Made by a program: the position numbers and the translations under genes. The notes under the pieces were generated by a model. The model was not told the DNA's origin. It searched no databases and saw only the letters and a list, made by a program, of their open reading frames with translations. Shown here in pieces: positions 50,911-55,690 of a DNA stretch of 64,000 nt (the first letter of the stretch is position 1; the number at the start of each line of letters is the position of its first letter). This stretch comes from Hymenobacter psoromatis (GTDB lineage Bacteria > Bacteroidota > Bacteroidia > Cytophagales > Hymenobacteraceae). The DNA lies in the NCBI GenBank assembly GCA_001596155.1, contig CP014771.1:1116001-1180000 (forward strand). Reading direction: 5' to 3'.

Positions 50911-52794
50911 CTACTTACCCAGCCACTTAGCCAGCAGCTTCTGCTGCTCGGCCGTAGCCGAGACCACGGGCTGAATCTGGTAGGTGCGGTCGGGGTCGGG
51001 TTGCAGCGTCAGGCTCAGGTCGTGGAGGTAGGCGTTGTGCTTGACCTGCATTTTGACGACCGTGCCGGGCGCGGTGGCGAAGAGCACCTGCTTCACCGCC
51101 TCGTCGGTGGGGGCGGCGCCGTTGAGCTGCATGATTTCGTCGTTCACGTTGAGGCCGCCGTTCCAGGCGGTGCCGTCGCGCTTCACGTAGGTCACGAGGT
51201 AGTGGCCGTTGCGGTTGGTGAGGGTGGCACCCAGGCTGCCGTTGAGGCTGGCGGGCGCGCTGGCGAGGTTCAGGCCCACGTAGCCAAGGGCGGTGGCGTA
51301 GTCGAGGGTGCGGGTGCTGTACACGCAGTTCTGGAAAAAGTCGTCGAAGCGGCGGCCGGCCACCTCGGCCACGGCATCCTGGTATTCCTGGTCGGTGAAG
51401 CCGCGCTTCAGGCCCTGGTAATATTTAGCGTAGAGCAGGCGAAAAACGTCGTCGATATGCTTCTGGCCGTTAGTGGCCTGCACAATCATCAGGTCGAGCA
51501 CCATGCCAATCATCTCGCCCTTGTCGTAGTAGCTGATTTCGGAGTTGCGCGAGTTCTCATCGGGCCGGTAGCCGCGAATCCAGGCGTCGAAGCTCGACAT
51601 GGCGGCGGGCTGGAACTTGTTGCCGGGCTGGTTCTCTACCCCCGTCAGCACGGTCGCCAGCTGGTCGAAGTACTGCTGGGCCGTGTAGAAGCCCGCGCGC
51701 TGGGCAATTTGGTTGGCCATGTACTCGGTCTGCCCCTCGCTCACCCACAGCATGTGCGTGTAGTTCTCCTTGTCGTAGTCAAACGGCCCCAACGCGATGG
51801 GCCGGATGCGCTTCACATTCCAAAGGTGAAAATACTCGTGGGCCACCAGGCGCAGGAAGTTCTTGTAGCCCACTTCCGACGAATACGTGCCCGGCCGCGC
51901 GCCCAGCGTGGTCGAGTAGAGGTGCTCCAGGCCGCCGCCGCCCGCCTCCAGGTGATGCACGATGAAGAGGTAGTGGTCGATAGGATTTTGGCCCACCACG
52001 CGCTGGGCTTCCTCCGTAATCTTCTTCATGTCGGCCAGGAAGCGGGGCTCGTCGGGCAGCGTGAAGGGGCCATACATGGCCATCTGGTGCGGCGTGTTGT
52101 TGGCGGTGAAATTCAGCACCCGCTGGTTGCCGATTTCGATGGGCGAGTCGGCCAGTTCATCGTAATTAGCTGACTGATAGACGAATTTTTGCATGCCCGG
52201 CGCGGCGCGCAACGCCGTGCTCACGGTGGCCCAGCCGGTGGCGGGCTGCACCGTTACCTGGCTGGCCATGTTCTTGGCCGCGGCCGGATACATAAAGATG
52301 CTGCTGCCCAGCGCGAAGCCGTGGTCGGCGTCTATATAGCTGGTGCGCACGCTGATTTCGTAGGCATACACCCCGTAATCGACCCGAAACGTGGCCTGGC
52401 CGGGGTGATACACGCGCCAGGTATTCTTGTCGAGCTTTTCCACACGTAGGGCCTGGCCGCCGGCCGCCTGGGCCTGGAGGCGCTCCACGTGCCGCTCAAA
52501 CTCGCGAATCAGGTACGAGCCCGGCGCCCACACCGGCATTTTGAGGTCGGTATATTCCTGGCCGAAGCCCTGCAAATCCATCCGCACCTCGAAGTAGTGG
52601 GTTTGGGGCGCGGGCATGGCCAGCGTGTAGCGCAGGCTGCCCCCGGTGACGCTTTCGGCGGCGGCCGGGGCGGCAGCAGCGCTGACGCGGTGCTTTATCT
52701 TGGTTTTGACTTTGACTTGGGCGATGGCGGGCCCGGCCGCCAGCAGGCCGGCCACGGCGGCCAGGCGGCAAAAAGCAGTAGTAGATGCGAACAT
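50911..52794 (-). CDS. M61 family glycyl aminopeptidase-like metallopeptidase with PDZ
   Basis: 627-aa exported peptidase. Signal peptide residues 1-26 ending AIAQ. The zinc motif HEYFH and WVSEGQTEY (third ligand Glu) place it in M61, and a PDZ domain occupies the C-terminal 100 residues (NVNDEIMQLNG). Start at ATG 52794 fits the signal. M61 enzymes act on N-terminal Gly/Ala peptides. Convergent with the small basic protein gene. Confidence 0.95.
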   Translation of the reverse strand: MFASTTAFCRLAAVAGLLAAGPAIAQVKVKTKIKHRVSAAAAPAAAESVTGGSLRYTLAMPAPQTHYFEVRMDLQGFGQEYTDLKMPVWAPGSYLIREFERHVERLQAQAAGGQALRVEKLDKNTWRVYHPGQATFRVDYGVYAYEISVRTSYIDADHGFALGSSIFMYPAAAKNMASQVTVQPATGWATVSTALRAAPGMQKFVYQSANYDELADSPIEIGNQRVLNFTANNTPHQMAMYGPFTLPDEPRFLADMKKITEEAQRVVGQNPIDHYLFIVHHLEAGGGGLEHLYSTTLGARPGTYSSEVGYKNFLRLVAHEYFHLWNVKRIRPIALGPFDYDKENYTHMLWVSEGQTEYMANQIAQRAGFYTAQQYFDQLATVLTGVENQPGNKFQPAAMSSFDAWIRGYRPDENSRNSEISYYDKGEMIGMVLDLMIVQATNGQKHIDDVFRLLYAKYYQGLKRGFTDQEYQDAVAEVAGRRFDDFFQNCVYSTRTLDYATALGYVGLNLASAPASLNGSLGATLTNRNGHYLVTYVKRDGTAWNGGLNVNDEIMQLNGAAPTDEAVKQVLFATAPGTVVKMQVKHNAYLHDLSLTLQPDPDRTYQIQPVVSATAEQQKLLAKWLGK

Positions 52795-52913
52795 GCGCGC
52801 AAAGTAAACGCCCCGGCTGGGCCGGGCAGTCAAATTTTTGTCCTCACCCCACGTTAACCTCTACCGGGCACCCGCCGTTAAGCGGGCCAGGCCCCTGGCT
52901 TTACCCTTGCTTT

Positions 52914-53489
52914 ATGCGTAGTATCTGGTTGATTTTTGGCGGCTTACTCATTATTCTGCTGGCGTTTAGGTTCTATCCGCACCAGCCAGCCAAGGCCTTT
53001 GTAGCCAGCCGCCCTACCCCCTCCAATCCCGTCATACTGGTGAGCGAGCGGCGGCCGGCCGCCTCGGCGCGGCCCACGGCCGAGGAGGCGCGCCGCGATA
53101 GCGTGGTGCGTTATGCCATGCGCCAACTGGGTGTTCCGTACCTCTACGCGGGAATTAGCCCAGTCAGCGGCTTCGACTGCTCGGGCTTTGTGTACTTCGT
53201 GTTCGCACATTTTGGCGTGCCTACCCCCCACTCCACGGCCCTGCTCATTGATGTGGGCCAGCCGGTGGCGCGGGCCGACGCCCGGCCCGGCGACATCGTG
53301 GTGTTTACCGGCACGGCACCCACCAGCACCACGCCCGGCCACGCGGGCATCGTGATTTCGGCACGGGGCGAAACGCCGCTGCGCTTCGTGCACGCTTCCT
53401 CGGCCCAGCGCGAGTCGGGCGTGAAAGTCAGCCAAGTCGAAAACTCGGGGTATGAGCGCCGCTTTATGCAAGTGCGGCGGGTGCTTTGA
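52914..53489 (+). CDS. NlpC/P60 family cell-wall peptidase
   Basis: 191-aa protein with an N-terminal membrane anchor or signal (residues 4-18) and an NlpC/P60 domain: Cys in GFDCSGFVYFVF, His in GHAGIVIS, third polar residue in FVHASS. It cleaves gamma-D-glutamyl-diaminopimelate-type bonds in muropeptides. ATG 52914 chosen for the signal. The minus-strand micro-transcription unit converges on its 3' end. Confidence 0.93.
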   Translation: MRSIWLIFGGLLIILLAFRFYPHQPAKAFVASRPTPSNPVILVSERRPAASARPTAEEARRDSVVRYAMRQLGVPYLYAGISPVSGFDCSGFVYFVFAHFGVPTPHSTALLIDVGQPVARADARPGDIVVFTGTAPTSTTPGHAGIVISARGETPLRFVHASSAQRESGVKVSQVENSGYERRFMQVRRVL

Positions 53490-53516
53490 TGAGGGGTAGG
53501 GAGGAGGAATTGAGGT

Positions 53517-53582
53517 AAAAAAACGATACCCGGTTGGCCCACCGCGGAACGCTCACGCGCGCCGTTGGGCCAACCGGGTATC
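53517..53582 (-). terminator. Intrinsic terminator of minus-strand micro-unit
   Basis: On the minus strand, a 17-bp perfect stem (53582-53566 with 53541-53525) is followed by C and seven T residues (plus-strand A run 53517-53523). The T tract is on the minus-strand exit side, so it terminates leftward transcription. Confidence 0.8.
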
Positions 53583-53699
53583 TAATCCTTCAAATCTTAC
53601 CAAGCGGCAGCGCTGGGGTACAGCGCCGGCGTCTTACAGTAAGACCTGTCCAACGAAAGGGACCACGATACCGCGGTGCCCTCCGCCGAGCTGTGTGTT

Positions 53700-53771
53700 T
53701 TAGGCGAGTACGGCGGTGAGGCGTACTACATTGGACAGGCTCGGCAGGATTTGGTTGGGACTACTAGACAT
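53700..53771 (-). CDS. 23-aa micro-ORF with consensus Shine-Dalgarno
   Basis: ATG at 53771, preceded by AAAGGAGGTACAAA, a near-perfect Shine-Dalgarno at ideal spacing, which is exceptional here because almost no other start in the window has one. The peptide begins MSSSPNQILPSL, ends VRLTAVLA and has no Cys. It may be a leader peptide, a type I toxin-like peptide or a signalling peptide. Support comes from promoter, SD and terminator. Confidence 0.6.
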   Translation of the reverse strand: MSSSPNQILPSLSNVVRLTAVLA

Positions 53772-53869
53772 TTTGTACCTCCTTTCTTTATGGTTCCACA
53801 TAACCCCAGACGCGCTTCCCAGCAATTTAGGGCGGCTTGTAAGGGGCCGTAGCACTCGCTACTGAGGGT

Positions 53870-53899
53870 TAAAGTTAATTGCTGGCGCGCAGGTTCAAA
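53870..53899 (-). promoter_or_regulatory. -33/-7 promoter of minus-strand micro-unit
   Basis: On the minus strand, TTTG (53899-53896), an 18-bp spacer and TAACTTTA (53877-53870), one base from TAnnTTTG. This is one of the two best -33/-7 pairs seen in the window. Confidence 0.6.
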
Positions 53900-54116
53900 A
53901 CTTTCGCCAATAATTCTGGGGCTTCGGGCCAGTCTTGTTAGCATTTAACTGATAGTCAAGCTACTTATTTTGCGAGTGGTGCCTGACTAGTCTTTACTTT
54001 TCCGGCTGATGGGCGGCGCGGGCCGCGCTGCACGGCAGAAGTAGGCAGCTAACTTTTCTGGCCGTATAATTGCCCTACCCAATCCATATTTTTCACCACA
54101 CCTTCACATTTTGACG
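53900..54116. other. No gene recognised
   Basis: Intergenic sequence between the micro-unit promoter and the DUF2147 gene. No repeat, RNA or convincing ORF was seen. Confidence 0.5.
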
Positions 54117-54560
54117 ATGTACAAGTATCTGGTCTTTTTTCTAGCTCTTTGGCTCGGTATGGCAGCCCAGCAGGCGCAGGCGCAAACCTCATCGCCGCTG
54201 GGCGTGTGGACCAACGCCGAAAAGAAAGCGACGTTTGAGATTTATAAGTGCGGCGACAAGCTCTGCGGCAAAATCATTACCCTCACCGTGCCCAACGACC
54301 CCAAGACCGGCAAGCCTAAGCTCGACACCGAAAACCCTGACCCTAAGCTGCGTACCCGCCCCCGCCTGGGCCTGGACTTCATGCAGGGCTTCAGCTACGA
54401 CGGCGACAACAAGTGGGACAACGGCAAAATCTACGACCCCGAAACCGGTAAAACCTACTCATGCTACATGAAGATACAATCGGCTAACACGATGGAGGTG
54501 AAGGGCTATATTGGCTTTTCGCTCATCGGCAAATCGCAGACCTGGACGCGGGTGAAATAA
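54117..54560 (+). CDS. DUF2147 exported protein
   Basis: 147-aa protein with signal peptide (hydrophobic residues 5-20, cleavage after AQAQ) and a DUF2147 beta-barrel-like domain: GVWTNAEKKATFEIYKCGD, CGKIITL, then GKIYDPETGKTYSCYM and the C-terminal GFSLIGKSQTWTRV. The domain is lipocalin-like; function is unknown. ATG 54117 preferred over the TTG at 54111. An intrinsic terminator follows. Confidence 0.92.
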   Translation: MYKYLVFFLALWLGMAAQQAQAQTSSPLGVWTNAEKKATFEIYKCGDKLCGKIITLTVPNDPKTGKPKLDTENPDPKLRTRPRLGLDFMQGFSYDGDNKWDNGKIYDPETGKTYSCYMKIQSANTMEVKGYIGFSLIGKSQTWTRVK

Positions 54561-55356: not shown

Positions 55357-55411
55357 GGATTACGCATTCCGCTATACTAGCCCAAACCGGCCGGCGTTGG
55401 TTTCAGTAATT

Positions 55412-55570
55412 GAAGCTGTTTAGGAAGTCAGCCGTGTGGCGGGCTGCCGGCTTTTCTGGCGGTTGTCCGCTCGTCGCCAGAATAAGCGGCGCGTCCGACG
55501 AGCGGACAGCCGGCCCAAGAGCCGGCAGCCCGCCGCGAGTGCCGCCTACCTGCACTTCCTAAATAGCTTC
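55412..55570. mobile_element. 159-bp MITE with 18-bp TIRs and ATT duplication
   Basis: Terminal repeats GAAGCTGTTTAGGAAGTC (55412-55429) and the complement 55553-55570 (two mismatches) flank a 15-bp internal stem (55438-55452 with 55520-55534). The flanking trinucleotide ATT is present on both sides (55409-55411 and 55571-55573), a target duplication of ANT type as in ISL2-group IS5 elements. There is no coding capacity. Confidence 0.75.
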
Positions 55571-55690
55571 ATTATCCGATGGGTAACCGACTGAGGCAGA
55601 CTACCTCGGGGCGGTGGCTTTCGGAAAGCCCATTGCCGCACTTATCTTCACCCAGCTGCCCCACACCAGGGGGGTAGTCGGTTTCTTTTT

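Follow-up and report, generated by a model that had tools for sequence, protein, structure and literature searches.

A free-standing Hymenobacter RNA gene with an extended Shine-Dalgarno sequence and a conserved mini-ORF: a candidate switch worked by ribosomes

Extended SD sequences and short-ORF RNAs

Bacteroidia keep the anti-Shine-Dalgarno (anti-SD) sequence of 16S rRNA yet hardly use SD sequences, and the purpose of this has been explained only in part, autoregulation of rpsU being one answer. In the work of McNutt et al. (2023, PMC9976891), the 16S tail of Bacteroidia is described as normally held by bS21, bS18 and bS6, F. johnsoniae ribosomes without bS21 are found to favour the extended SD of the rpsU mRNA, and the anti-SD pairing of rpsU mRNA is given as -14 to -21. 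The same work indicates that SD control is apparently limited to rpsU in Flavobacteriales and that the rpsU criteria hold in about 20% of Cytophagales, mainly Cyclobacteriaceae; the screen apparently worked from annotated genes, and an ORF of 23 codons could therefore fall outside it (PMC9976891).

The window, that is, the whole stretch of 64,000 nucleotides of Hymenobacter psoromatis DNA analysed here, contains an RNA gene whose SD is long, as is that of F. johnsoniae rpsU (9-13 bp, PMC9976891), and pairs with the 16S tail over 11 bp at -17.7 kcal/mol (RNAduplex), in a phylum that hardly uses SDs; here, however, it belongs to a free-standing structured RNA with a 23-codon ORF that does not encode bS21. 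In this Hymenobacter genome, where rpsU has no SD, the only full 11-nt partner of the anti-SD with a start codon is this conserved mini-ORF RNA. SgrS/SgrT, RNAIII and other dual-function sRNAs are likewise free-standing and structured and have a short ORF that looks translated, whereas in our RNA the ORF is a strand of the main helix and the SD is of a type ignored by the usual ribosomes. As in leader peptide attenuators, the movement of a ribosome on the short ORF would alter the RNA fold, but there is no co-directional downstream gene in the window, the ORF has no run of codons for the same amino acid, and the terminator is separate from the ORF helix.

Full-text searches of an open-access library listed no description of this RNA, and none of the 4227 models of Rfam release 15 matched it in the window at E <= 1. 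On 14 loci no Rfam model reached its gathering score, the weak overlaps in the RNA region of L098 being GcvB (24.9 of 42 bits, E 0.18) and BSnc120 (27.1 of 114 bits, E 0.043), and ARAGORN reported no tmRNA in the window. The RNA is best filed as a new family that combines an extended SD with a short-ORF RNA, unlike any described system known to us; it has been kept throughout one entire Cytophagales family, is absent from Rfam, and can be searched for by covariance model.

The RNA gene, its SD and its distribution

The earlier note had proposed that positions 53516-53899 of the minus strand hold a self-contained unit of promoter, SD, 23-codon ORF, hairpins and a 17-bp stem with T7, and this unit is real, with every element in place; it would give a structured RNA of roughly 350 nt. 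From 5' to 3' the order is promoter, P1, P2, the stretch UAAAGAAAGGAGGUACAAAAUG, ORF, internal hairpins, 3' box and terminator (Table 1). One of its neighbours is divergent (54111-54560, +); the other, a convergent gene at 52785-53489 (+), we take from its sequence to be NlpC/P60-like. The fold of 53516-53863 has an energy of -158.1 kcal/mol (z = -7.5), and none of 100 shuffles was as stable. A generic terminator scan did not report the terminator of the RNA, because such a scan allows loops of up to 8 nt and this one has 24; the stem was instead identified by direct reading. TTTTGAACC and TAACTTTA in the promoter region, from which the RNA would be transcribed, are kept across Hymenobacter; the flavobacterial -7 box is reported as TAnnTTTG (PMC9723704).

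Table 1 Features of the RNA gene, in positions of the window
Feature	Position	Strand	Details and basis
Putative promoter	53870..53899	-	TTTG 53899-53896, 18 nt, TAACTTTA 53877-53870; read directly
P1, 5' hairpin GUAGC-GAGU-GCUAC	53849..53862	-	Counted alignment, 51 sequences
P2, stem-loop with conserved apical CCCUAA...GCUGGG	53804..53846	-	Counted alignment, 51 sequences
Extended SD AGAAAGGAGGU (AGAAAGGAGGT in DNA)	53787-53777	-	Complements 16S tail ACCUCCUUUCU; 5 nt before ATG
Mini-ORF MSSSPNQILPSLSNVVRLTAVLA, 23 codons and stop	53771-53700	-	Start ATG 53771
P7a 5' arm AGUCC (codons 4-5)	53758..53762	-	Partner 53588-53584
P7b 5' arm (codons 8-11)	53739..53750	-	Partner 53605-53594
P3 5' arm and P4 hairpin within the ORF	53708..53738	-	Paired cells counted
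P3 3' arm CGUUGGACAGG	53645..53655	-	Counted alignment
3' box GCUUGGUAAGAU-UUGAA-GGAUU, which pairs with codons 4-11 of the ORF	53584..53605	-	Pairing and covariation
Predicted intrinsic terminator	53516..53582	-	Perfect 17-bp stem 53582-53566/53541-53525, T7 53523-53517; read directly

The 16S gene, its 3' end read in L063, ends in GGATCACCTCCTTTCT. The anti-SD pairing of the RNA is stronger than the -13 kcal/mol required of bS21-controlled extended-SD genes, the energy being calculated here with RNAduplex and there with free_scan (PMC9976891). The rpsU gene of the window genome, located elsewhere (C3:3743265), has no SD, and the 11 nt before its start pair with the 16S tail at -2.7 kcal/mol. 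The 8-mer AAAGGAGG alone proves nothing, because it occurs once in the window and 1.75 times would be expected by chance. The 5.45-Mb genome has five copies of the 11-mer: three of these are rRNA 3' ends on the opposite strand, another (C3:3219020) has no start codon at SD distance, and the copy in this RNA is the only exact one that has. The earlier remark that a strong SD is out of keeping with the other starts therefore holds true genome-wide for the full 11-mer.

Since GAAAGGAGGT was demanded of the alignment sequences, SD conservation was judged from the loci found by blastn or model, where the exact 11-mer with a start codon is present in 133 of 145, a count that includes redundant loci (several per genome) as well as the unverified L100, which looks like the beginning of a longer gene. 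Exceptions in otherwise good members are L098, L104 and L106, with one or two changes or a shorter match (10 nt in L098, a changed 5' part in L104 and L106), and two relatives found by the models have a weakened SD, namely L108 (AGAAAGGGGGT, GTG start) and L110 (AGAAAGGTG). The start codon follows GGAGGU by 3-5 nt and is GTG in 14 of 143 sequences and otherwise ATG; in single-sequence folds the SD is moderately open (49% unpaired, 69-70th percentile). Conservation of SD, ATG and stems among relatives had been named in the earlier note as one of the points on which its proposal would stand or fall, and the comparison bears it out, the start and the stems being kept across several families and the SD in nearly all relatives.

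Some smaller observations concern the same region. In L110 (1578-1602), the ORF, 3' box and terminator are kept beside the shrunken SD, for which a sequencing or assembly fault is possible because this genome is 75% complete. In Rufibacter-type genomes (L054, L107, L173, L217 and relatives), the mini-ORF starts with GTG and the full SD is kept. At about 53798-53801, some 10-15 nt before the SD, an AUGU outside the assigned helices does not vary among 28 aligned sequences, and in some genera a CUUAUG at this place might form pairs with CAUAAG of the P2 loop. The upstream AUG in the conserved UAUGU was dropped as the start of a second ORF, the frames differing between species by eye.

The 384-bp stretch was matched in 120 of 120 Hymenobacter genomes, more than chance would give, with a single match in 118; another genome (G056) is matched twice, equally well, within a single contig, and the additional match of the window genome is only its own terminator read backwards. 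R1, a sequence model of the SD-ORF block built from 28 sequences, had a single match in each of 55 of the 291 genomes of the order; in the class it matched 11 of 395. Among the 55 are all 45 sampled genomes of the Hymenobacter family, a count that follows from the non-matches, listed by kinship, including no family member. Four R1 matches are unverified, L101, L102 and L112 showing no credible RNA and L100 being the locus described above, so 3 of the 11 class matches and 1 of the 55 order matches may be due to chance. R2, a second model with structure, was built from 23 sequences, none of Hymenobacter type, and recovers the Hymenobacter locus of the window at full length as the sole match in that genome. 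It matched 51 of 291 genomes of the order, once per genome, and 8 of 395 in the class, comprising four Hymenobacter and four genomes outside the order (families f23 and f51) with full-length but weaker matches; these R2 counts are lower bounds, because three genomes of a sister genus (G345, G358, G375) found by R1 and blastn were missed. In the phylum sample, 3 of 178 genomes were matched, these being the three Hymenobacter genomes that it contained.

A scan of named genomes with the exact pattern returned at least 120 stretches, and the 80 matches listed include Hymenobacter, Pontibacter, Rufibacter, Sabulibacter, Adhaeribacter, Nafulsella, Rhodocytophaga, Chryseolinea, Chryseosolibacter, Parachryseolinea, Pseudochryseolinea, Ohtaekwangia, Dawidia and several metagenome bins, as well as one Cyclobacterium match, whose position at the extreme end of its stretch makes it impossible to judge. 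No phage copy with the exact pattern was present in IMG/VR. Across 148 loci, the flanking genes are common within the Hymenobacter family and different in other families.

Helices and the mini-ORF

For the mixed group, little came of RNAalifold when it was run on plain MAFFT alignments, and the helices were therefore counted by name, as paired cells, against alignments with one side slid. Identical sequences were merged, and two loci with the box AGGATG (L018, L144) and those with too short flanks were left out; the counted Hymenobacter-type alignment comprises 51 of 95 distinct sequences. In these 51 sequences 93.1% of cells are paired versus at most 44.0% after sliding (covariation 0.145 versus at most 0.047), and in 23 non-Hymenobacter sequences 88.9% versus at most 54.0% (0.155 versus at most 0.058), although the derivation of the structure from these sequences favours it over its slid versions. 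Two-sided cells in the 51-sequence set number 109, compared with 38.9 in shuffles (0 of 500 as high), and there is no excess either of pairs with two-sided change (12 versus 10.0; 59 of 500 shuffles as high) or of further pair types (35 versus 35.7; 362 of 500).

The single helices in this set are paired in 100% (P1), 85.7% (P2), 88.2% (P3) and 96.5% (P4) of cells, with two-sided changes in 2 of 5 pairs of P1 and 6 of 14 pairs of P2, and with CG:24 AU:22 UA:5 at pair col158-172 of P4. In P7a, the AGUCC of codons 4-5 pairs with GGAUU; this helix is invariant in the 51 sequences, shows G-U to A-U elsewhere, and says little alone because it hardly varies. In P7b, codons 8-11 pair with GCUUGGUAAGAU, just upstream of GGAUU, and its 12 positions are paired in 82-100% of cells over 80 distinct sequences of all groups, with exchanges that include C-G/U-A/U-G and C-G/U-A/A-U. 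Cognate arms pair better than non-cognate arms with at least 8 of 24 differences (mean -21.5 versus -15.4 kcal/mol), and the cognate arm is often not the top one (median rank 19 of 83), since many arms differ very little from one another. In P7, the ORF thus supplies one of the two strands of the helix closing the 3' domain. A likeness of GGATTAGATACCC to the 790 loop of 16S rRNA was dismissed, as it does not persist beyond the genus group.

The length of the mini-ORF lies between 18 and 23 codons in 90 of 90 distinct sequences: 23 in 45 of Hymenobacter type, 18-23 in 38 others and 19-22 in a far set of 7 hand-picked from verified matches. Outside these 90, the ORFs of L108 and L110 have 22 and 20 codons by eye. 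In the Hymenobacter-type and other sets, a stop codon closes frame +2 within its first three codons in all 83 sequences, and frame +1 is broken ahead of codon 18 in 29 of 45 and 32 of 38, respectively. The N-terminus of the predicted peptide, MS(S)SPKQIL or close to it, is largely kept across families, and its codons are mostly fixed at the wobble positions too, while the C-terminal half varies. Within the genus, codons 10, 13, 15, 16, 20 and 23 vary only synonymously and third positions take 45 of 87 changes; a tree-based synonymous excess was not significant (31 of 87 versus 30.5% expected, p = 0.18). By eye, the peptides are variable, mostly polar and not markedly hydrophobic. The constraint on an open frame that is looked for in dual-function sRNAs was thus found in 90 of 90 sequences, with p = 0.18 in the synonymous test, and because this constant frame goes with a variable C-terminal half, translation rather than its product looks constrained. 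Selection would act less on the peptide than on the translation of some 20 codons.

Proposed mechanism and rival explanations

We propose, tentatively, that this free-standing RNA gene with its own promoter and terminator acts as a switch that is operated by ribosomes whose anti-SD tail is exposed, a reading that we consider quite possible but would not call probable. Because its SD is of a kind that these bacteria normally ignore, a special ribosome form may read the mini-gene, and since bS21, bS18 and bS6 normally hold the tail (PMC9976891), 30S subunits with an exposed tail would be those that lack bS21 or are immature. The extended SD would select such subunits by their exposed 16S 3' tail, and the initiating ribosome would strip the 5' strand, from codon 4 onward, from the long helix closing the 3' domain, with the ORF length setting the extent of the helix opened. 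The released 3' strand (GGUAAGAUUU...GGAUU in Hymenobacter), which lies beside the terminator, might then act in trans or alter RNA stability, and the RNA would remain closed when no suitable ribosome is available. This is the simplest account of the features taken together. The comparison shows the gene unit with its conservation and helices, the constant open frame and the SD match, and from these we infer transcription, translation, the ribosome state sensed and the output. Support also comes from the recovery of the locus by R2, from an anti-SD pairing far stronger than that before rpsU and from neighbours that change between families; against the switch count the relatives with an altered SD, the synonymous excess that is not significant, the only moderate openness of the SD, the result that pairing with rpsU mRNA does not exceed shuffles, the absence of a tie to the rpsU SD and the three genomes missed by R2. 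The stronger version, in which the RNA represents a new class of switch sensing the ribosome state, with the mini-ORF read by exposed-tail 30S alone and its reading opening the RNA and freeing a trans-acting strand, seems doubtful to us. If true, the RNA would give lineages with an SD-less rpsU a dedicated extended-SD output of another kind than rpsU. The locus makes it directly testable whether specialised ribosomes have an RNA output beyond their own protein gene.

An alternative that we hold to be unlikely is a short mRNA for a functional micropeptide (MSSPKQILS...), the fold merely regulating its own translation. The largely conserved N-terminus, the constant ORF length and the share of changes at third positions speak for it; however, the C-terminal half is unconserved between families, the synonymous excess is not significant, and the N-terminal codons are mostly wobble-fixed, with codons 4-5 and 8-11 pairing with the 3' box. 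Rather improbable is a decoy that holds exposed-tail 30S subunits on the start site with structure right behind it, the ORF just keeping the start functional. Such a trap would account for the 11-nt SD with AUG and for P7a beginning 9 nt past the A of AUG, but it does not need a constant frame of 18-23 codons, and the SD is weakened in two relatives. It is distinctly improbable that the RNA is a base-pairing or protein-binding structured RNA with P1 and P2 as the active part, in which translation only modulates its lifetime: P1 and P2 are conserved with covariation, but the 51 Hymenobacter-type sequences have 17 invariant positions in the first 66 nt versus 56 in 77-162, the SD-ORF block, the SD having been required in picking these sequences.

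That the RNA provides a leader peptide or attenuator controlling a gene beyond it, or encodes a type I toxin, appears highly improbable. Mini-ORF, hairpins and terminator are present as such systems would have them, and in nine loci of other families among those shown, the nearest downstream ORF (called mechanically, at least 90 aa) is co-directional at 247-682 nt. Against this, the gene that follows at the present locus is convergent, two convergent families account for the nearest downstream ORF in 88 of 148 loci, and the neighbours change between families, which makes a classical leader peptide unlikely at this locus. The type I toxin is unsupported, the peptides being mostly polar by eye and differing between families beyond the first 9-10 residues, and nothing except the open frame favours a signalling peptide. 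Of the three suggestions in the earlier note, then, a translation-controlled sRNA fits best, and the interpretation given in that note is supported in part.

The idea that the RNA substitutes for a missing rpsU SD was rejected, as there is no anticorrelation in 30 genomes: a clear rpsU SD was seen in 2 of 19 genomes with the RNA versus 0 of 11 without it, the latter being the first non-matches listed rather than a random choice. In 17 genomes, pairing between the RNA and the rpsU mRNA was no better than in mononucleotide shuffles (z -1.3 to +1.7). Three genomes of family f23 (G730, G693, G673) have 2-3 bS21 genes each, and in two of them the best-scoring bS21 copy, the one examined, has a 6-9-nt SD.

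Two further repeats were noted. In a sister genus, a palindrome lies directly 3' of the RNA gene (L051:1862-1947), and microRNA models match it, some on both strands. In the window, a long inverted repeat with the ends GAAGCTGTTTAGGAAGT and ACTTCCTAAATAGCTTC lies between two genes at 55408-55573; it gives sub-threshold Rfam microRNA matches and is perhaps a miniature mobile element.
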